From positions 2,445,406 through 2,509,405 of the forward strand of contig NZ_CP120653.1 of assembly GCF_030545015.1 (NCBI RefSeq): 64,000 bases of DNA, read 5' to 3'. The DNA is from Myroides sp. JBRI-B21084 (GTDB lineage Bacteria; Bacteroidota; Bacteroidia; Flavobacteriales; Flavobacteriaceae). Below the pieces are notes generated by a model. The model searched no databases and was not told the origin of the DNA. It saw only the letters and a list, made by a program, of their open reading frames with translations. Within the stretch, counting starts at the first letter, position 1; the number at the start of each line of letters is the position of its first letter. Positions 39,304-46,961 of the stretch are shown piece after piece. The position numbers and the translations under genes are program-made.

Positions 39304-39377
39304 GGCGAGGTAGCTCAGTTGGTTAGAGCGCAGGATTCATAACCCTGAGGTCACGGGTTCAACTCCCGTCTTCGCTA
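39304..39377 (+). tRNA. tRNA-Met (CAU)
   Basis: A full cloverleaf is visible. The 7-bp acceptor stem GGCGAGG (39304-39310) pairs with CTTCGCT (39370-39376) with two G-U pairs, and A77 is the discriminator. The D arm is GCTC...GAGC. The anticodon loop TTCATAA contains CAT. The T arm is ACGGG-TTCAACT-CCCGT. The top anticodon-stem pair is an A-C mismatch. CCA is not encoded. The features fit elongator methionine; initiator identity is less likely because its three G-C pairs below the anticodon are missing. Confidence 0.95.
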
Positions 39378-39380
39378 CAA

Positions 39381-39504: not shown

Positions 39505-39520
39505 TATGATTTGCATCATA
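39505..39520. promoter_or_regulatory. Crp/FNR-family type operator upstream of norC
   Basis: TATGAT-TTGC-ATCATA is a perfect dyad of the TTGAT-N4-ATCAA class bound by FNR, DNR and NnrR-type regulators. Its centre (39512.5) is about 42 bases upstream of the expected start of transcription from the -7 element at 39543-39550. This is the class II activator position. The binding protein is not in the window. Confidence 0.65.
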
Positions 39521-39542: not shown

Positions 39543-39550
39543 TACTTTTG
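39543..39550 (+). promoter_or_regulatory. norC promoter, -7 element
   Basis: TACTTTTG matches TAnnTTTG. No TTTG is present at -33, where the dyad operator lies instead, which fits an activator-dependent promoter. The leader to the norC ATG is about 50 bases. Confidence 0.55.
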
Positions 39551-39605: not shown

Positions 39606-40040
39606 ATGTTATCAAAATCACAAGCACGAGCATTTTTTTTAGGCGGAACAGTAGTTACCTTTTTAGTCTTTATAGGCTTAACCATCTATTCGTTCATGCC
39701 TAAAAATGATCAAACTTATCATGATAAGATTGATGCAAAAGTTATTAGAGGTAAAGAACTTTGGGAATCGAACAATTGCATGGGATGCCATTCCATACTT
39801 GGTGAAGGTGGTTATTACGCACCCGAACTTACTAAAGTAATTGAACGTAGGGGCGAAGTTTATGTAAAAGCGGCATTACAATCACCAGTACCTTGGGGTG
39901 CACGAGGTAGAAAAATGGTGAAATATGAAATGAACGATGCCGATGCCGAAGCAATGATTGCTTATTTTAAATGGATAGGTAATATTGATTTAAATGGCTT
40001 TGATCGTGTGGTATCGCCTTTAGTAAAAGATAAAGAATAA
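39606..40040 (+). CDS. norC: Nitric oxide reductase cytochrome c subunit
   Basis: NorC passes electrons to NorB, which reduces NO to N2O. The 144-residue protein has one N-terminal membrane anchor (residues about 9-30) and a periplasmic cytochrome c domain. The heme motif is CMGCH at residues 58-62, followed by SILGEGGYYAPELT; the axial methionine is probably in GRKMVKYEMND. It is the first gene of the cluster and sits 17 bases before norB. Confidence 0.95.
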   Translation: MLSKSQARAFFLGGTVVTFLVFIGLTIYSFMPKNDQTYHDKIDAKVIRGKELWESNNCMGCHSILGEGGYYAPELTKVIERRGEVYVKAALQSPVPWGARGRKMVKYEMNDADAEAMIAYFKWIGNIDLNGFDRVVSPLVKDKE

Positions 40041-40057
40041 TCCAAAAAAATAGAAAT

Positions 40058-41398
40058 ATGAAATTTAAATCACAAAAAGTAGCTTATTGGTTCTTTGGAT
40101 TATGCATGTTGTTATTTGCATTACAAATTATCTATGGTTTTATCATGGGCTTTGCCCGAATTGGAATGGACGGTTTACACGACTTTATTCCTTTTAACAC
40201 AGCACGTGCCGTGCACACCAATTTATTAGTAGTTTGGTTGCTAACCGGCTTTATGGGGGCTGCATATTATATTATTCCTGAAGAAGCACAACGCGAATTA
40301 ATAAATGTAAAATTAGCGTACGTACAGCTTATATCGCTTGCTGTTGTTGGTGTTTTGGCAATTATTGGATATCATTTTAACATTTGGGAAGGTCGTAAAT
40401 TTTTAGAAATTCCTCGTGAATTAGATTATTTAGTGGTTGTTAATGTTTTACTTTTCTTAGGTTTAATTTTAGGAACTTTATACAAAGCCAAACGCCGAAC
40501 CACTACAGCATTAGTGCTTTCAATGGGCTTATTATTCGCAGCATTATTGTATTTGCCAGGTATGATTTGGTTTGATAGCCAAGTAACCGATTCATTTTTC
40601 CGTTGGTGGGTAGTGCATTTATGGGTTGAAGGTGTTTGGGAATTAATCATGGGTGGTATTTTATCGTACTTATTAATTAAATTAACCGGTGTTGATAGAG
40701 AAGTAATAGAAAAATGGTTGTATGTAATTGTTGGTTTAACTTTTTTGTCGGGAATTTTAGGAACAGGCCACCATTATTACTACATAGGTGTAAATAAAAT
40801 TTGGTTAATTGTAGGAGGAATTTTCTCTGCCCTAGAACCACTTGCATTTTTAGCCATGGCATTGTTTGCAGTGTATATGTATCGTAAAGGCGAAAAAAAT
40901 CACCCTAACAAAATAGCGTTGTTTTGGACCATAGGCGCATCAATTGTATCGTTTATAGGCGCAGGTTTGTTAGGTTTTGCGCATACTTTACCGCAAACAA
41001 ATATTTATACGCACGGTACATTAGTTACAGCAATGCACGGGCACTATGCTTTTTGGGGTGCTTATGCTATGATAGTTTTAGCTATTATTAGTTATGCCAT
41101 GCCTAATTTAACTGGCCGTAAATTGTATGATAGTACACGCGGACATTTAGCTTTTTGGTTCTCAAATGTAGGTATGTTAGGTATGACAGTAGCTTTTGGT
41201 GTTGCAGGTGTAGCCCAAGTATATATGGAACGCAAAATGAAAATGGATTTTATGGATGTGCAAAATGAAATTAAAGTTCACTTTATTGTACTTATACTTT
41301 GTGCAACTTTATTCACAGTCGGAATTATATGCTACATTTTAGAATTTATTAAATACGGTAAACCAACCGATGAAGCGTTAATAAAAGATAATAATTAA
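40058..41398 (+). CDS. norB: Nitric oxide reductase catalytic subunit (cNOR type)
   Basis: NorB reduces two NO to N2O at a heme b3/non-heme iron site. The 446-residue protein has about 12 membrane helices. Conserved residues seen include the heme ligand His in ARAVHTNLLVVW, the FeB His and Glu region WVVHLWVEGVWELIMGG, the FeB His pair in GTGHHYYYIG and the heme His pair region LVTAMHGHYAFWG. It is the short cytochrome-c-dependent class, with no N-terminal quinol-oxidase extension, in agreement with norC next to it. Confidence 0.97.
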   Translation: MKFKSQKVAYWFFGLCMLLFALQIIYGFIMGFARIGMDGLHDFIPFNTARAVHTNLLVVWLLTGFMGAAYYIIPEEAQRELINVKLAYVQLISLAVVGVLAIIGYHFNIWEGRKFLEIPRELDYLVVVNVLLFLGLILGTLYKAKRRTTTALVLSMGLLFAALLYLPGMIWFDSQVTDSFFRWWVVHLWVEGVWELIMGGILSYLLIKLTGVDREVIEKWLYVIVGLTFLSGILGTGHHYYYIGVNKIWLIVGGIFSALEPLAFLAMALFAVYMYRKGEKNHPNKIALFWTIGASIVSFIGAGLLGFAHTLPQTNIYTHGTLVTAMHGHYAFWGAYAMIVLAIISYAMPNLTGRKLYDSTRGHLAFWFSNVGMLGMTVAFGVAGVAQVYMERKMKMDFMDVQNEIKVHFIVLILCATLFTVGIICYILEFIKYGKPTDEALIKDNN

Positions 41399-41407
41399 CA
41401 TTTTACC

Positions 41408-41458
41408 AACCGAAACCAACAGCTTTACATTTTTAAAGTTTTGGTTTCGGTTTTTTTT
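41408..41458 (+). terminator. Intrinsic terminator between norCB and norQD
   Basis: AACCGAAACCAA (41408-41419) pairs with TTGGTTTCGGTT (41441-41452), with an inner CTTTA/TAAAG stem, followed by eight T. It sits right after the norB stop and 10 bases before the norQ start. Confidence 0.85.
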
Positions 41459-41467
41459 AGAAGAATT

Positions 41468-42250
41468 ATGACACAAACAGAAACTATTTTTTACAAAGCT
41501 GTTGGCAACGAAATAGAGGTTTTTAATCACATTAATCAACTTAAATTACCATTGTTATTAAAAGGTCCTACCGGTTCAGGTAAGTCGCGTTTTGTTGAAT
41601 TCATGGCAATCACCCTAAATAAAAAATTGTATACCATTAGTTGTCACGAAGAAACATCGGCAACTGATTTAATTGGTAGGTATATTATTAAAGGTGCAGA
41701 AACTATTTGGATTGATGGTCCTTTAACAACCGCAGTAAAAAACGGTTACATTTTGTATTTAGATGAGGTTGCCGAAGCGCGCCCCGATGTAATTGTTGCC
41801 ATTCACTCACTTACCGATCACCGTAGAGAACTTTTTATTGATAAATTAGGTGAAACCATTAAAGCGCATCCCGATTTTATTTTGGTAGCATCATTTAATC
41901 CTGGTTATCAAAAAGGATTTAAAGAACTAAAACCTTCAACAAGGCAACGTTTTGTGGCTCTTTCATTTAATTATCCCAATCCAAAAACCGAAGCCGAAAT
42001 ATTAGTGAATGAAACCGGTATAGCTGCCGAAATTGCTATAAAATTGGTAACAATTGCTTCAAAAATTAGAAATTTAACCGAATTAGGTTTAACCGAAACC
42101 GTTTCAACACGTTTGTTGGTTGATGCTGCTAAGTTAATTACCAACGGTTTACCTAAGCGCTTAGCGGTTCATGTAGCGGTTATTGAGCCTTTAACCGATG
42201 AATTAGATACAATTCAGGCACTTAAAGATTTATGTGATTTAATGATTTAA
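41468..42250 (+). CDS. norQ: NorQ/CbbQ-type AAA+ ATPase
   Basis: NorQ is a MoxR-group AAA+ ATPase that with NorD inserts the non-heme iron into NorB. The ATG at 41468 gives 260 residues; an earlier in-frame start at 41441 lies inside the terminator. Walker A is GPTGSGKSRFVEFMA, Walker B LYLDEVAEARPD, and sensor 1 is in FILVASFNPGYQ. norD starts 6 bases downstream. Confidence 0.95.
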   Translation: MTQTETIFYKAVGNEIEVFNHINQLKLPLLLKGPTGSGKSRFVEFMAITLNKKLYTISCHEETSATDLIGRYIIKGAETIWIDGPLTTAVKNGYILYLDEVAEARPDVIVAIHSLTDHRRELFIDKLGETIKAHPDFILVASFNPGYQKGFKELKPSTRQRFVALSFNYPNPKTEAEILVNETGIAAEIAIKLVTIASKIRNLTELGLTETVSTRLLVDAAKLITNGLPKRLAVHVAVIEPLTDELDTIQALKDLCDLMI

Positions 42251-42256
42251 TAAAAA

Positions 42257-44029
42257 ATGGGATTTGAATTAGATGAATTTCTATATAAAAAAGTACTAAA
42301 GTATTTTAAAAATAAACGAAATAATAATGCCGAACTGTTAAAAAAACAAGTTGTTTTAGCAGATATAAAACCGCGTTTAACACTTTTTGCTCGTGCTATT
42401 TGTGGCGAAGCTATTGAAATTTATCCAGCCGAAAGGGAAGGAGGGTACAAAAACAAAAACTTTTTTTTACCCATTAATTGTGCGCTTTTTGAAACGTATC
42501 AAGAAAATTTAAAATTTTATTTTTTTAGAATTTTGTATTTGCATCAACAACGCAATTTAAATTTTAATTGGCAAGCTAACAGTGCAAACACAACCCATCA
42601 ACAAGCATTAGAAAAAGCATACGAAACGGCACCTATTGTTTTAGAAAATCTTTTTAAAAATTTTCCTGCAATGCAAGTTGTTTATAACGAAATGTACGCG
42701 CAATTACCTTTGCTTAAAAATACCAATACCCCCGATTTATCTTGGTTGTACGGTAAATGGATGAAGAATGCTGATGCAGAAGATGAAAAAGATTTTTTAC
42801 AAAATTTTAACGATAAGGTTTACAAAAATCAACCCAATTTAACACCCGAAACTACTTTAAAAACAAAGGCGGTTGAAGAAATTGAATCGTTAATGATTGA
42901 TAAAAAACAGCAAGAAGATTATGTTTTAATGCACAGTTTTGAAAAAATTGAAACGGCAGAAGAATTCAACGGCAATTGGCGCGATTTTGATGGGCGTGAT
43001 GAATTAGAAGACCACCAAGAAGCTTTAGAAGAAATGAATATGCGTTTTACGGTTCGGGTTGATGATCTAACACATTCGGTATATCAAGCAGATTTTGTTG
43101 AAAACACATCGGTTGCAGAAAGTGCCGAAGCCGAAGAAACTGGTGTTTGTTATGAATACGATGAATGGGATTTTAAAAAACGCAAATATTTAACTCAGTT
43201 TTGTAAAGTTTACACTAAAAATCAAAAGCAAACCAGTCCAAATTATTACAAAAATACACTTATAAAATATAAAGCAACTTTAAGCGGTTTGCGTAAAATG
43301 TTAACAAGTGTAAATAATAAAATGCAACAACAACGCAAGCAATTACAAGGCGATTCGTTTGATTTAGATGCATTAACCGATTTGTACACCGATATTCATT
43401 CAGGAAAATCGCCCGACGAACGTGTGTATCTATCCAAACGCAAGCAAAATAAAGATCTTGCTATATTGGTTTTGTTAGATATTAGTTTGTCTAGTGATGG
43501 ATATGCTGCAGGTAACAGAGTTATAGATGTGGAAAAAGAAGTTTCTATTTTATTTGGCGAAATTTTAAACGAATTTCAAATAGATTTTGCAATAGATGGA
43601 TTTTATTCAAAAACTCGAAATTTTAATACATACCTCACTTTAAAAGATTTCAATGAAAATTGGAACTCCGCAAAAAATAAAATTGGAGCAGTTGAACCAA
43701 ACGGATATACACGTATAGGTCCGGCTTTAAGACACGCAGGTGCTCGTTTAAATAAATTAGATGCTAAAAATAAATGGATTATTGTACTTTCTGATGGAAA
43801 ACCTAATGATTACGATAAATACGAGGGGCAATATGGTATAAATGATGTAAAACAAGCCTTACGCGAACTTAATGAACAAAAAATAAATTCATACGCTTTA
43901 GCAATAGAAGCGCAAGCAAAATATTATTTACCACAAATGTTTGGTCAAAATCATTATCAAATATTAACATCGCCCAACGCATTAATAAAAGCAATGGTAA
44001 AGTTGTACGAAAAAATTAAACATCAATAA
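42257..44029 (+). CDS. norD: NorD-like VWA-domain protein
   Basis: The 590-residue protein has a divergent N-terminal region rich in acidic and aromatic residues and a C-terminal von Willebrand A domain (about residues 385-590). Its MIDAS is intact: LVLLDISLSSDG (DxSxS), the threonine in NGYTRIGPALRHAG and the aspartate in VLSDGKPNDYDKYEG. It is the partner of NorQ in assembling active NorB. Its length is close to known NorD proteins. Confidence 0.93.
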   Translation: MGFELDEFLYKKVLKYFKNKRNNNAELLKKQVVLADIKPRLTLFARAICGEAIEIYPAEREGGYKNKNFFLPINCALFETYQENLKFYFFRILYLHQQRNLNFNWQANSANTTHQQALEKAYETAPIVLENLFKNFPAMQVVYNEMYAQLPLLKNTNTPDLSWLYGKWMKNADAEDEKDFLQNFNDKVYKNQPNLTPETTLKTKAVEEIESLMIDKKQQEDYVLMHSFEKIETAEEFNGNWRDFDGRDELEDHQEALEEMNMRFTVRVDDLTHSVYQADFVENTSVAESAEAEETGVCYEYDEWDFKKRKYLTQFCKVYTKNQKQTSPNYYKNTLIKYKATLSGLRKMLTSVNNKMQQQRKQLQGDSFDLDALTDLYTDIHSGKSPDERVYLSKRKQNKDLAILVLLDISLSSDGYAAGNRVIDVEKEVSILFGEILNEFQIDFAIDGFYSKTRNFNTYLTLKDFNENWNSAKNKIGAVEPNGYTRIGPALRHAGARLNKLDAKNKWIIVLSDGKPNDYDKYEGQYGINDVKQALRELNEQKINSYALAIEAQAKYYLPQMFGQNHYQILTSPNALIKAMVKLYEKIKHQ

Positions 44030-44031
44030 AT

Positions 44032-45018
44032 ATGGAAACTCCCAATATATTTTCATCAATACCTTCAGGACATCCAATTAATACGTATTTAAAGGAAACC
44101 GAATTAATAAAACAGTTAATTAATGAAATTCTTTCTATTAATCCAGCCGAAGAATTTCAAAAGTTTTATAATATTTTTAATCATTTGGCAACGGTTGAAA
44201 GAAGGTTTGAACGCAAAGAAAACCAACTTTTTCCTTATTTAGAACAAAAAGGATGGACCGGACCATCAAGAAATATGTGGTCGTTTCACGATACCATTAG
44301 GGAAATGTTTCGGGTTGTGCGTAAAAATATCGATGAAAACGATTTTTCTTCAATTCAAAACAACACCTATCTGTTGGCTCAAAATATTATGCGATTGCTT
44401 CAAGTTGAAGAAAATGTATTATTTCCAAATGCTCTTGAAATGTTAACGCAAACTGATTGGGTTACCATGCGTAAAGGCGAAGATGAAATAGGTTGGATGT
44501 TGGCCGATAAACCTTTAACATACCCCAATGAACCAGATTACGTTCATCCATCATTAGATACTGAACGCCGAACCAATGTTGTTTACAACGAAAATGCCTT
44601 ACATTACGATGAGGGTTTTATGACGGTTGAACAAGTAAATCTTATGTTTAAAACGTTACCAATTGATTTAACGTATGTTGATGAAAACGATAAAGTTATT
44701 TTTTACAACAGAGGCGAAGAACGCGTTTTTCCGCGAAGTGCTGGAATTATTGGTCGTGAAGTGCGATTTTGTCATCCACCCAAAAGTGTAGATACCGTGT
44801 TACAAATCTTAGAAACTTTTAAAAAAGGAGAACAAAACGAAGCATCTTTTTGGATTAATTATAAAGAACGCCTAATTTATATTAGATATTTTGCTGTACG
44901 CGATGCAGAGAAAAATTACAAAGGTGTAATAGAAATGTCGCAAGACATAACCGAAATTCAGCAAATAACAGGCGAACGACGATTATTAGAATGGGATATT
45001 AATTATGAAAGGCTATGA
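44032..45018 (+). CDS. Hemerythrin-PAS (DUF438-like) protein
   Basis: The 328-residue cytosolic protein joins a hemerythrin-like helical bundle (about residues 15-145; NHLATVERRFERKENQLFPY, WSFHDTIREMFRV, VEENVLFPNALEML) to a C-terminal PAS domain (about 205-310; LPIDLTYVDENDKVIFYNRG, GREVRFCHPP). DUF438 proteins of this build occur beside nitrogen-oxide and anaerobic metabolism genes. Iron-site residues are present, so it may bind O2 or NO. A sensing or iron-handling role for the nor cluster is inference. It begins 2 bases after norD and overlaps the carbonic anhydrase gene by 4 bases. Confidence 0.85.
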   Translation: METPNIFSSIPSGHPINTYLKETELIKQLINEILSINPAEEFQKFYNIFNHLATVERRFERKENQLFPYLEQKGWTGPSRNMWSFHDTIREMFRVVRKNIDENDFSSIQNNTYLLAQNIMRLLQVEENVLFPNALEMLTQTDWVTMRKGEDEIGWMLADKPLTYPNEPDYVHPSLDTERRTNVVYNENALHYDEGFMTVEQVNLMFKTLPIDLTYVDENDKVIFYNRGEERVFPRSAGIIGREVRFCHPPKSVDTVLQILETFKKGEQNEASFWINYKERLIYIRYFAVRDAEKNYKGVIEMSQDITEIQQITGERRLLEWDINYERL

Positions 45019-45677
45019 GAATTATAAGTACTATTTTATTCAGCATTTTTAGCATCTTACTTTTTTCTTGTGAAACTGTTGAACATCGTCATGCTCCAAA
45101 AACTGCAGATGAAGCTTTAAAAGAATTGATTGAAGGAAACCAGCGCTACGTAAAGAATGTATCTATACATCATAATTTTATTGATGAAGCACACCATTCC
45201 GAAAAAGAACAACATCCACATACTTTTGTGTTGTCTTGTATTGATTCACGTGTGCCACCTGAAATTGTTTTTGATCAAGGAATTGGAAATTTATTTGTTG
45301 CCCGAGTAGCTGGAAATATCGAAGATCCAAATATTTTAGGAAGTATGGAATATGCCGTTCAAGTAAAAGGTACTAAACTGTTAGTAGTGTTAGGACATTC
45401 CAATTGTGGAGCGGTTCAAGGCGCAATTGATAATGTGAATTTGGGACATTTAACTCAATTAACCAATCAAATCAAAGTAGCATTTAATGAACACAGAACG
45501 TATCCATTGCCCGAGCATATATCAGATGAAACAGGTCGATTAAACGTGCTTTCCACAATAGATGATATTCTCTTTTCAAGCAAAATTATTAGAGATTTGG
45601 TTAATCAAGAAAAAATAAAAATAGTAGGAACATTTTACGATTTACATACAGGTAAAATTGAAATTTTAAAATCATGA
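45015..45677 (+). CDS. Lipoprotein beta-carbonic anhydrase
   Basis: The 220-residue protein has a lipoprotein signal (ILFSIFSILLFSC, Cys19) and a beta-class carbonic anhydrase domain: LKELIEGNQRYVKN, the zinc and catalytic CxDSR motif at Cys75 (LSCIDSRVPPE), and the second zinc pair in GHSNCGAVQGAI. It therefore interconverts CO2 and bicarbonate in the periplasm. Start and stop overlap both neighbours (ATGA with norE), so it is embedded in the nor operon. Its reason for being there is unclear. Confidence 0.93.
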   Translation: MRIISTILFSIFSILLFSCETVEHRHAPKTADEALKELIEGNQRYVKNVSIHHNFIDEAHHSEKEQHPHTFVLSCIDSRVPPEIVFDQGIGNLFVARVAGNIEDPNILGSMEYAVQVKGTKLLVVLGHSNCGAVQGAIDNVNLGHLTQLTNQIKVAFNEHRTYPLPEHISDETGRLNVLSTIDDILFSSKIIRDLVNQEKIKIVGTFYDLHTGKIEILKS

Positions 45678-46243
45678 CTAGCTCAAAATCAATATACTAT
45701 CCGCCAGGTGGCCTTTTAATTTGGATTGTAATTTATCTAGAATTAATAACATTTGGTATGGCAACCTTAGCATTGGCATATTATGGTTCACAAAATCGAT
45801 CAGAATTTCACGCCGATAGTTTGTTATTAAACAAAACAGTTGCTACCATAAATACAATTGTTTTGTTAACCAGTGGTTATTTTGTAGCCATTGCCATAAA
45901 GCATTTTAAAGCGCAACAACTACCAAAAACCTTACAGTTTTTAACTTGGGCTATTTTATGTGGAACTTTATTTTTGGTATTAAAAGGTTATGAATATTAC
46001 GAAAAAATAGAAGCTGGTTTAACCATGGGCAAAAGCGATTTTTTTAATTATTATTGCTTGCTTACTGGTTTTCATTGGCTACATGTTTTAGTTGGAATTG
46101 TAATTTTACTTTTTTTTAGATTTAATATAGCCAAAAAGCAAACAGTAGCATCGTTAGAAGATTTTGAAGCCGGTGCCGCTTTTTGGCATATGTGCGATTT
46201 AATATGGCTGTTTTTGTTTCCTATTTTATATTTAATGTTTTAA
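45674..46243 (+). CDS. norE: Cytochrome c oxidase subunit III-like protein (NorE)
   Basis: The 189-residue protein has about five membrane segments and COX3-family motifs: YLELITFGMATLALAYYG, GFHWLHVLVGIVILL and FEAGAAFWHMCDLIWLFLFP. NorE proteins accompany cNOR gene clusters and improve NO reductase activity without being essential. It starts inside the carbonic anhydrase stop region (4-base overlap). Confidence 0.92.
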   Translation: MTSSKSIYYPPGGLLIWIVIYLELITFGMATLALAYYGSQNRSEFHADSLLLNKTVATINTIVLLTSGYFVAIAIKHFKAQQLPKTLQFLTWAILCGTLFLVLKGYEYYEKIEAGLTMGKSDFFNYYCLLTGFHWLHVLVGIVILLFFRFNIAKKQTVASLEDFEAGAAFWHMCDLIWLFLFPILYLMF

Positions 46244-46251
46244 AAAAGCTT

Positions 46252-46491
46252 ATGAGAATTACTTTAACCCAAACCTATATTTTACTTGTTTTTTTAACGG
46301 TAGTAACAGCAATAACCGCTATTTTTGGAAATTTTAACGTAGGTGTAAAATTTATTATTTTATTAGCAATTATAAAGTTTTGGCTTGTTGGTTTTCAGTT
46401 TATGGAACTAAAAAAAGCAAATAAGTTTTGGAAAATAACTTTAATTAGTTTTGGTTGCATAATTGGTTTTTTTTACACTGTTTTACTGTGA
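46252..46491 (+). CDS. norF: Small membrane protein, cytochrome oxidase subunit IV-like (NorF)
   Basis: The ATG at 46252 gives 79 residues with three membrane segments (TYILLVFLTVVTAITAIFG, KFIILLAIIKFWLVGFQFME, ITLISFGCIIGFFYTVLL). An upstream in-frame start at 46183 would overlap norE and is rejected. The central IKFWLVGFQFMELKKA is the hallmark of the COX4/NorF family. It is the last gene of the cluster. Confidence 0.85.
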   Translation: MRITLTQTYILLVFLTVVTAITAIFGNFNVGVKFIILLAIIKFWLVGFQFMELKKANKFWKITLISFGCIIGFFYTVLL

Positions 46492-46589: not shown

Positions 46590-46961
46590 ATGAAAATTTT
46601 TAAAACAATACTTTTTGTTCTTTTTGGCTTAATGTTTGCAAATGCTGGCTTAGATAAGTTTATACACTACATGCCAATACCCGAAATGGATAATGCCATG
46701 CAAGAAATTTTTAAAGCAATGGATACTTTAAAATGGTTAATACCTTTAGTTGGTTTTGCTGAATTATTGGGTGGTATTTTAGTTTTAATTCCTAAAACCA
46801 GATTTTTAGGTACTTTAATTATCTTTCCTGTATTAATAGGTATTATTTGTCATAATGCAACTTTTGCACCCGAAGGTTTACCAATTGCAGGCGTTTTGTT
46901 GCTAATAACTTTGTGGATTTTTTACGATAATTTAGGAAAAATTAAGCACATTTGTTGCTAA
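46590..46961 (+). CDS. DoxX-family membrane protein
   Basis: The 123-residue protein has four membrane segments, a short extracytoplasmic loop (HYMPIPEMDNAMQEI) and the DoxX-type block LVGFAELLGGILVLIPKTR. DoxX-like proteins are small membrane subunits sometimes tied to redox systems. The function here is unknown. It has its own promoter and terminator, so it is not part of the nor operon. Confidence 0.85.
   Translation: MKIFKTILFVLFGLMFANAGLDKFIHYMPIPEMDNAMQEIFKAMDTLKWLIPLVGFAELLGGILVLIPKTRFLGTLIIFPVLIGIICHNATFAPEGLPIAGVLLLITLWIFYDNLGKIKHICC

Follow-up and report, generated by a model that had tools for sequence, protein, structure and literature searches.

The window (the whole stretch of 64,000 nucleotides of Myroides sp. 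JBRI-B21084 DNA that was analysed) carries, at positions 39606-46491, a cNOR-type NO reductase cluster in the order norC-norB-norQ-norD-HPAS-CA-norE-norF. The norD-norE slot of this putative operon would have been enlarged by two genes, one for a hemerythrin-PAS protein (HPAS) and one for a beta-carbonic anhydrase (CA). We tentatively read the locus as a nirK-bearing, Flavobacterium-type cNOR operon with two accessory genes, in which CA would buffer the periplasm and HPAS would serve as an iron/redox accessory. The features on which this reading draws are:

39506..39519, + strand: Crp/Fnr-type palindrome ATGATTTGCATCAT, 100 bp upstream of norC
39543..39550, + strand: possible Bacteroidota -7 element TACTTTTG (TAnnTTTG), read from the sequence
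39606..40040, + strand: norC, cytochrome c subunit of cNOR (Cytochrom_C Pfam match, CxxCH present)
40058..41398, + strand: norB, catalytic subunit of cNOR (COX1 Pfam match)
41408..41452, + strand: terminator/attenuator-like hairpin in the norB-norQ gap (12-bp outer stem, then a U run)
41468..42250, + strand: norQ, MoxR-type AAA+ ATPase (AAA_5 and CbbQ_C Pfam matches)
42257..44029, + strand: norD, VWA protein (VWA Pfam match)
44032..45018, + strand: HPAS, hemerythrin-PAS protein (Hemerythrin and PAS_10 Pfam matches)
45015..45677, + strand: CA, beta-carbonic anhydrase (Pro_CA Pfam match, lipobox-like LFSC)
45674..46243, + strand: norE, COX3-like membrane protein (COX3 Pfam match)
46252..46491, + strand: norF, small COX4-like membrane protein (COX4_pro Pfam match, corrected start)

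All eight genes lie on the + strand with matching Pfam domains, in the order and over the span that the initial annotation had given. Cytochrom_C and COX1 fall on separate proteins and norB has no fused cytochrome-c-like N-terminal domain, whereas in ten qNOR comparison proteins PF22085 is fused to COX1; the accessory genes norQ (MoxR AAA+), norD (VWA), norE (COX3-like) and norF (COX4-like) are all present. The cluster is assigned to the cNOR type, NO reduction being the activity predicted from its genes. The norQ start is most likely the ATG at 41468, and that of norF most likely the ATG at 46252, 8 bp 3' of the norE end, rather than the mechanical TTG at 46183. The two extra genes had been described as joined by 4-base overlaps, which is correct for HPAS-CA and CA-norE; norD and HPAS are separated by a 2 bp gap. 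The HPAS-CA overlap is peculiar to the window, its 8 nearest CA-bearing relatives having gaps of 7-20 bp, and the 4-base CA-norE overlap is kept in all 8 of them.

The Cys-His-Cys residues, which we take to be the Zn ligands, and the Asp-Arg pair, whose role we likewise assume, are kept in all 18 aligned nor-slot CAs, including the fused domain of L063, a Bacteroidetes MAG. In the main subfamily, C-x-D-S-R and GHxxC are conserved in 17/17 nor-CAs and a hydrophobic N-terminal segment is present in the same 17, with a simple lipobox pattern in 8 (window included). This segment is absent from four other Bacteroidota CAs that were checked (two paralogs from the same genome and two from other genomes); L140 lies outside nor in the same large CA clade, yet has it. 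CA is thus probably an exported, membrane-tethered beta-carbonic anhydrase, with a predicted localisation and a putative role in CO2 hydration. Its dN/dS of 0.05-0.18 (7 pairs) indicates purifying selection. An apparent CA-NorE fusion (P0020, 361 aa), whose middle part does not match the NorE N-terminus, was set aside as, by eye, a frameshift artefact on one metagenome contig.

In the genus sample, a CA match (E<=1e-50) was found in 19 of 388 genomes. Since 18 of these 19 (the window's own genome among them) sit between norD and norE, the placement of CA in the nor slot is above chance; the 19th lies behind a Sulfate_transp gene, and within this sample the CA subfamily itself is found only in the nor slot. 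Both extra genes also recur in the named-species, NorB-anchored sample (the best 80 of 151 loci, skewed to close relatives): the slot is visible in 69 of the 80, the other 11 being dropped, and holds HPAS in 41 (L071 scored from an 82 aa piece), CA in 16 and both in 14, with L011 and L086 probably representing one organism. A second sample of 17 loci, which overlaps the first and includes two parts of one genome and two qNOR loci, left 8 with a visible slot after 9 were dropped, with CA in 1/8 and HPAS absent from 6/8. The expectation that related nor clusters would carry both genes therefore fails for CA in most clusters (absent from 53/69 and 7/8), and HPAS is missing from 28/69 in the named-species sample. 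A tblastn search over 97 loci found no CA beyond those already in the slot. Carriers such as F. yafengii and F. sandaracinum have close relatives (F. urumqiense and F. xueshanense) with none, and because CA is patchy even at this distance it is dispensable for cNOR.

The NorB tree requires 10 changes for CA, at least 6 of them forced by supported branches, and a single gain with stable inheritance is unsupported by it; there may have been one gain with several losses, plus a separate gain in L063, which is of another lineage and has its nor slot occupied by a SulP-CA fusion. The topology of that fusion presumably leaves its CA domain in the cytoplasm, unlike the CA of the window. In the CA tree, clustering of metagenomic sequences with the window CA is expected, as 36 of them were drawn from the 120 best matches to it, and label counts, with gene context lacking for the metagenomic rows, are uninformative on the number of gains. 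At 8 nor loci outside Bacteroidota, neither CA nor HPAS was found within 7 kb, norE directly following norD in only 2 of the 8. No CA was found near qNOR at 10 loci, a weak contrast because these come from 9 genomes and 8 of the loci from genomes picked for solo HPAS. Most cNOR clusters are without CA too, which also limits the qNOR contrast.

HPAS (328 aa) combines a degenerate hemerythrin-like domain at about residues 15-137 with PAS_10 at 203-307; its N-terminus is not hydrophobic by eye, and the protein is probably cytoplasmic. The label "DUF438-like" that it had been given suits its kin (DUF438 is present in L116, the single full-length relative tested) and not HPAS itself, in which DUF438 (PF04282) gave no match up to E 0.01; the domain is absent from the solo relative L190 as well. 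We take COG2461 to be the family name of the DUF438 hemerythrin-PAS proteins. In the predicted structure, helices span residues 15-34, 55-72, 79-101 and 105-137, with block means of pLDDT of 77-98 there, and the domain so modelled is a four-helix bundle; the whole model is moderate (mean pLDDT 78.9, pTM 0.53). H14, E63, H86 and E126 are retained in all 58 nor-linked HPAS sequences, and R58 and L122, each in 58/58, replace the histidines of the RIC HxxxE motifs. The first RIC motif aligns with R58 and K62, E63 being adjacent (this alignment is short and from one MAFFT run), and the second with L122 and E126. HPAS lacks the full His/Glu set of di-iron ligands. Since H58 is kept in 23/23 full-length DUF438 relatives, its loss is specific to the nor-linked group.

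HPAS lies outside the nor cluster in 9 of the 22 HPAS genomes of the family sample, and a restriction of HPAS to cNOR function was rejected on this ground. Seven of these nine solo-HPAS genomes have NOR elsewhere (qNOR in 7/7, cNOR also in one), the presence of qNOR being by itself no evidence of linkage; two gave no NOR match at E<=1e-20, and one of these is 88% complete. HPAS is often located behind norQD. The picture of a single extended module, as first proposed for the two extra genes, has lost ground: a probably cytoplasmic HPAS and a predicted exported CA look like separate add-ons, HPAS occurring without CA in 27/69 named-species loci and CA without HPAS in 2/69.

A Crp/Fnr-type site (<=1 mismatch, <=300 bp upstream of norC) is found in 56 of 93 loci including the window, against 4.1 expected from mononucleotide shuffles, although these 56 loci are related and hence not independent cases. 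One-mismatch copies of the norC site lie upstream of the RIC, azurin-like and nirK genes of the same genome; two more one-mismatch matches in the 15-kb stretch L200 are both within genes. That the site accompanies HPAS everywhere found no support, with <=1 mismatch at 2/9 solo HPAS genes (0.38 expected) and 1/21 full-length relatives. The possible -7 element matches TAnnTTTG, which we take to be the Bacteroidota -7 motif, and was missed by a stricter two-box promoter pattern. The norB-norQ hairpin (-21.8 kcal/mol, z -7.4) separates the structural from the accessory genes and may hold CA levels well under those of norCB. A similar stem is present in L028, L034 and L036, L028 and L036 being identical in sequence there. 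The simple terminator scan, with a loop limit of 8, did not list this hairpin, and neither sigma-70-type promoters nor terminators turned up more often than in shuffled sequence.

The same genome carries nirK, an azurin-like gene, SCO and a RIC that scores over the curated cut-off and is distinct from HPAS. Many relatives have nirK in their nor clusters, and some nosZ. The locus therefore belongs to a denitrifying context that goes beyond NO defence, and its original description as an NO-defence module was too narrow.

Several other explanations have to be weighed. An exported CA could serve carbon retention, forming bicarbonate that SulP would take up again for anaplerotic carboxylation in anoxic growth, the nor location only coupling its expression to denitrification. 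The genome has a Sulfate_transp gene adjoining two further CAs (39% and 25% identical to the nor CA), and in L063 the nor slot itself is filled by a SulP-CA fusion. We nevertheless regard this as distinctly unlikely, as a long distance separates the SulP-CA locus (about 2.26 Mb) from the nor operon (about 2.49 Mb) and the idea leaves unexplained why the cNOR slot, not the vicinity of SulP, holds the CA in 18/18 genus-sample subfamily matches. Less probable again is that the two extra genes ride as loosely selected passengers in a recombining norD-norE region that gathers genes useful in hypoxia, with no direct action on NOR. The patchiness of CA on the NorB tree, a CA divergence out of step with neighbouring genes in some pairs, and the occurrence of HPAS outside nor clusters would all fit such a region. 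Yet the genes recognised in the slot by the ORF surveys (covering loci other than L001-L010) were limited to HPAS and CA, plus a RIC-like gene at four loci of the family sample; furthermore, CA is under purifying selection with its norE overlap kept, and is near-exclusively nor-linked in the genus sample. Peroxynitrite arises from NO and superoxide and reacts with CO2, so that a CA lowering local CO2 might lessen this reaction at oxic/anoxic edges. Only the setting, an NO-handling operon with a predicted exported CA, speaks for this highly improbable reading: CA does not change the equilibrium CO2 level, and among the recurrent neighbours, few of whose small clusters carry an annotation, none was recognised as a gene for superoxide or peroxynitrite.

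For HPAS, the competing view is that of an NO-binding, RIC-like protein with roles in NO sensing or buffering and in the repair of iron centres. Precedents can be found: the hemerythrin-like NorA of Ralstonia is reported to work together with NorB (PMC9045102), Aquabacterium has ytfE upstream of norCB, RIC-like genes stand beside HPAS in the slot at 4 family-sample loci, and PG_0686, a hemerythrin-PAS10 protein with one usual histidine only, is reported to contain iron (PMC10101095). Because the RIC-type site histidines are missing, simple NO binding by HPAS is doubtful, and the initial suggestion that the hemerythrin senses or buffers NO is weakened. The loss of H58 in the nor-linked group, set against its retention by the DUF438 relatives, and the separate RIC already in the genome also count against this view, which we consider unlikely.

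We therefore return to the operon with a periplasmic buffer and an iron/redox accessory. cNOR is described as taking up its protons from the periplasm in a non-electrogenic manner (PMC9976466, PMC3431322), and qNOR is reported to draw them from the cytoplasmic end (PMC6713497). Since cNOR protons come from the periplasm, a periplasmic CA would be a sensible partner. CA would speed the CO2/bicarbonate buffer on the side of the membrane where cNOR and NirK use protons, respiratory CO2 leaving the cell being converted to bicarbonate and H+ near the proton inlets, with less local alkalinisation as a result. By a stoichiometric estimate, about 0.5 CO2 per 2 electrons would compare with the 3 H+ that the reduction of one nitrite to N2O takes; since only a share of the protons could come from this source, the role would be buffering and kinetic rather than bulk supply. 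HPAS might handle iron, or sense the redox/NO state, around the NorQD-driven insertion of FeB, and bulk carriage of NO or O2 is less likely given R58 and L122 at the RIC histidine positions. A bolder version, which we hold to be somewhat unlikely, would have a NOR-dedicated "proton-feeding" periplasmic CA evolve in denitrifying Flavobacterium, HPAS act as an iron/NO-state accessory of NorQD, and the L063-type SulP-CA fusion reach a similar end in another lineage.

If true, a CA inside a cNOR operon connects N2O formation with the CO2/bicarbonate buffer, and periplasmic proton supply as a limit on NO reduction becomes testable through one gene. CA could also mark the operon in one group of nor clusters from Flavobacterium. 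HPAS becomes a candidate for a step of iron handling around NorQD; two papers on NorQD make no mention of an iron donor or iron source.

Among the papers judged by title and abstract opening, from searches on carbonic anhydrases at nor clusters and on the DUF438/COG2461 family, none names such a cluster. The F. enshiense genome paper (PMC9867689) reports nor genes and does not mention carbonic anhydrase; another F. enshiense genome (L107) has the CA. The window shares all six genes and their domains with the norCBQDEF cNOR cluster as described in PMC13036017 and differs from it by two more genes between norD and norE. HPAS resembles the NorA/RIC proteins (YtfE, ScdA, DnrN; PMC9045102) in its hemerythrin-like domain and tie to NOR and NO, but has PAS_10, no ScdA_N match and neither of the HxxxE histidines. 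It is closer in build to the DUF438/COG2461 proteins PF0695 (PDB 3cax) and PG_0686 (PMC10101095), sharing a hemerythrin-like domain, PAS_10 and a CHPP motif; 3cax is its best sequence and fold match, at a whole-chain TM-score of only 0.45. Compared with its DUF438/COG2461 relatives in the phylum, to which it is 32-42% identical, HPAS lacks DUF438, is shorter (328 aa versus 404-505 aa in 21/23) and has R58 in place of their H58. Finally, CA belongs with the bacterial beta-carbonic anhydrases of the Pro_CA family (PRK15219 group; PDB 1ym3) by its catalytic residues, with a PRK15219 score of 201, under the curated cut-off of 221. Its subfamily is set apart from other beta-carbonic anhydrases by its link to nor and by a lipobox or N-terminal anchor with which it is predicted to be exported.

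The window is a terminal portion of one 2,509,405-base contig (G000:C1:2445406-2509405), and among the best 80 of 151 named loci its nearest named NorB relatives are from Flavobacterium. The ORF list and a Pfam scan together give eight nor-cluster genes, here set out with neighboring features:

39304-39378, tRNA-Met, ahead of the cluster
39606-40040, + strand, norC
40058-41398, + strand, norB
41408-41452, strong hairpin with a trailing U run, in the norB-norQ gap
41468-42250, + strand, norQ
42257-44029, + strand, norD
44032-45018, + strand, HPAS (hemerythrin-like and PAS_10 domains by Pfam)
45015-45677, + strand, CA (beta-carbonic anhydrase, predicted to be exported)
45674-46243, + strand, norE
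46252-46491, + strand, norF
46590-46961, DoxX-like gene, behind the cluster

Both 4-base overlaps described in the initial annotation (HPAS-CA and CA-norE) are present. The anatomy and the association of these genes are solid, while the mechanisms by which CA and HPAS would act in the operon of a cytochrome-c-type NO reductase (cNOR) are ones we infer.

HPAS and CA form a real, recurrent extension of the cNOR operon. The slot between norD and norE is visible in 69 of the 80 named loci sampled by NorB (best 80 of 151); 14 of these contain both genes, 27 only HPAS, 2 only CA and 26 neither. The pairing proposed as an extended NO-defence module thus recurs among relatives, but CA is found in only 16/69 slots and 26/69 lack both genes. 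Seventeen unnamed loci from a phylum sample of 395 genomes show the slot in eight cases, with HPAS in 2/8 and CA in 1/8. By tblastn over all 97 of these loci, CA occurs in the 17 already counted (16 named, 1 unnamed) and none besides, and HPAS in 46, including clusters whose slot is only partly visible. A CA match at E<=1e-50 is present in 19 of the 388 genomes of the genus sample. In 18 of them, window counted, it lies between norD and norE; the nineteenth, 44% identical, comes after a Sulfate_transp gene. Across the phylum sample, 66/395 genomes have a match at E<=1e-40, with at least 50% identity in only two, the window and G068, both in nor clusters; G216 (49%) and G087 (43%), which rank next by E-value, are outside nor clusters. 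Two copies, norQ of F. covae (L056:14684-15464) and norE of another locus (L180:917-1497), are each split into two ORFs and may be broken or contain sequencing errors.

In an 87-row tree, in which the long branches L083, L140 and L063 are of unsure placement, every nor-linked CA apart from L063 belongs to a single clade of 54 rows with full support. Since this clade also contains 36 metagenomic proteins and the non-nor CA of G216, CA is shown to be nor-dedicated within the genus sample and not across the whole clade. On the NorB tree (78 rows), CA presence requires 10 changes, 6 of them forced by supported branches, versus 16.4 in shuffles. CA is under purifying selection, as dN/dS is 0.05-0.18 across seven pairs. 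Its divergence disagrees with that of the flanking genes in several pairs (window 45015-45677 versus L028-L038): synonymous differences from L036 are fewer than in the neighbors, and dN is higher in L028/L036 and L034/L038. This mismatch hints that CA may have passed between species by gene exchange. The slot of a Bacteroidetes MAG (L063:8495-10699) encodes SulP fused to a beta-CA (Sulfate_transp and Pro_CA in one protein), placed in a different part of the tree and most likely an independent recruitment, known from this one MAG.

Catalytic residues are intact in all 18 aligned nor-slot CAs, and an N-terminal hydrophobic segment is present in all 17 members of the nor-CA subfamily; 8/17 match a simple lipobox pattern, a few more have a similar SC or GC site by eye, and the rest appear anchor-like. 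The genome's own SulP gene adjoins two more CA genes (G000:C1:2259855-2262872; L201:5856-8873), and neither of these paralogs has an export signal or the hydrophobic segment. Excerpts of PMC9976466 and PMC3431322 place the source of cNOR protons and electrons in the periplasm, and a portion of PMC6713497 places that of qNOR protons at the cytoplasmic end; CA may thus provide buffering and protons to cNOR. CA and HPAS are absent from 10/10 qNOR loci (all PF22085 plus COX1) within the stretch fetched. This fits the proton reading only weakly, because 8/10 come from genomes picked for solo HPAS and most cNOR clusters also lack CA.

The closest solved relative of HPAS is 3cax, and the AlphaFold model of HPAS shows four helices well within an overall moderate prediction (mean pLDDT 78.9, pTM 0.53). 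In an alignment of 58 nor-linked and 9 solo sequences with 23 from phylum relatives (90 in total), H14, E63 and E126 are present in all but two, which have gaps at H14; H86 is kept in 58/58, 8/9 and 16/23, respectively. Aligned with the genome's own RIC, a hemerythrin-like iron-repair protein, HPAS has R58 and L122 for the two HxxxE histidines and K62, adjoining E63, for the first Glu, so the classic NO/O2 site is not intact. Since R58 (with L122) occurs in 58/58 nor-linked proteins versus H58 in 23/23 phylum relatives, this group has lost a histidine that the parent family keeps. HPAS occurs in 22/397 family-sample genomes, 13 times in a nor cluster (one, L185, with only norE and norF within the stretch) and 9 times elsewhere; 7 of these 9 genomes have NOR elsewhere. 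In four loci (L183, L186, L187, L188), three of which belong to the same genus, norD and HPAS are separated by a RIC-like gene with 26-31% identity to RIC; in a broader region of one such genome (L199), its ScdA_N and Hemerythrin matches are below Pfam cut-offs. As NorQD inserts FeB into NorB (excerpts of PMC9976466 and PMC13036017), an iron role for HPAS beside norD would be attractive, and HPAS might provide an iron or NO-state service.

Many relatives carry nirK, nirV-like and SCO genes within or adjoining the nor cluster, where RIC, nrdDG or nosZ is often present as well; labels come from sequence clusters, profile-checked for nirK, the nirV-like FGE-sulfatase protein, SCO, RIC, nrdD and a nosZ piece. 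Here a denitrification island on the same contig (G000:C1, about 17.6-25.5 kb; L200) contains RIC, globin, azurin-like cupredoxin, Crp-family regulator, nirK, nirV-like, SCO, an unnamed 415-aa protein and Rrf2, with nirK ~38 kb from the nor cluster provided the contig is circular. The palindrome ATGATNNNNATCAT sits 100 bp 5' of norC; copies with no more than one mismatch are present within 300 bp upstream of norC in 56/93 loci, which are related and so not independent, versus 4.1 expected from mononucleotide shuffles. In this genome, RIC, the azurin-like gene and nirK are each preceded by a one-mismatch copy. The 15-kb stretch L200 has two more, both intragenic, and one other occurs across the full 64-kb window. 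Given these Crp/Fnr-type sites, the nor cluster most likely belongs to a Crp/Fnr-type denitrification regulon. The norB-norQ hairpin, similar in three relatives (L028, L034, L036; identical in two of them), is likely an attenuator that would reduce norQD-HPAS-CA-norEF relative to norCB.

Outside Bacteroidota, 241 plasmid records have a NorB match, and CA and HPAS are absent within 7 kb in all eight loci compared (seven Pseudomonadota, one Thermus, out of 40 matches listed). There norE directly follows norD in only 2/8, and ytfE lies upstream of norCB in 1/8. Azospirillum brasilense p3 has another iron protein adjoining norD, a ferritin-family gene directly 3' on the opposite strand (L241:11206-12105). 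The titles and opening lines of abstracts found by the literature searches do not mention this extension of the cNOR operon. The cNOR cluster described in excerpts of PMC13036017 has six genes compared with eight in the window, and on this small sample of sequences the eight-gene cluster looks like a Bacteroidota variant.
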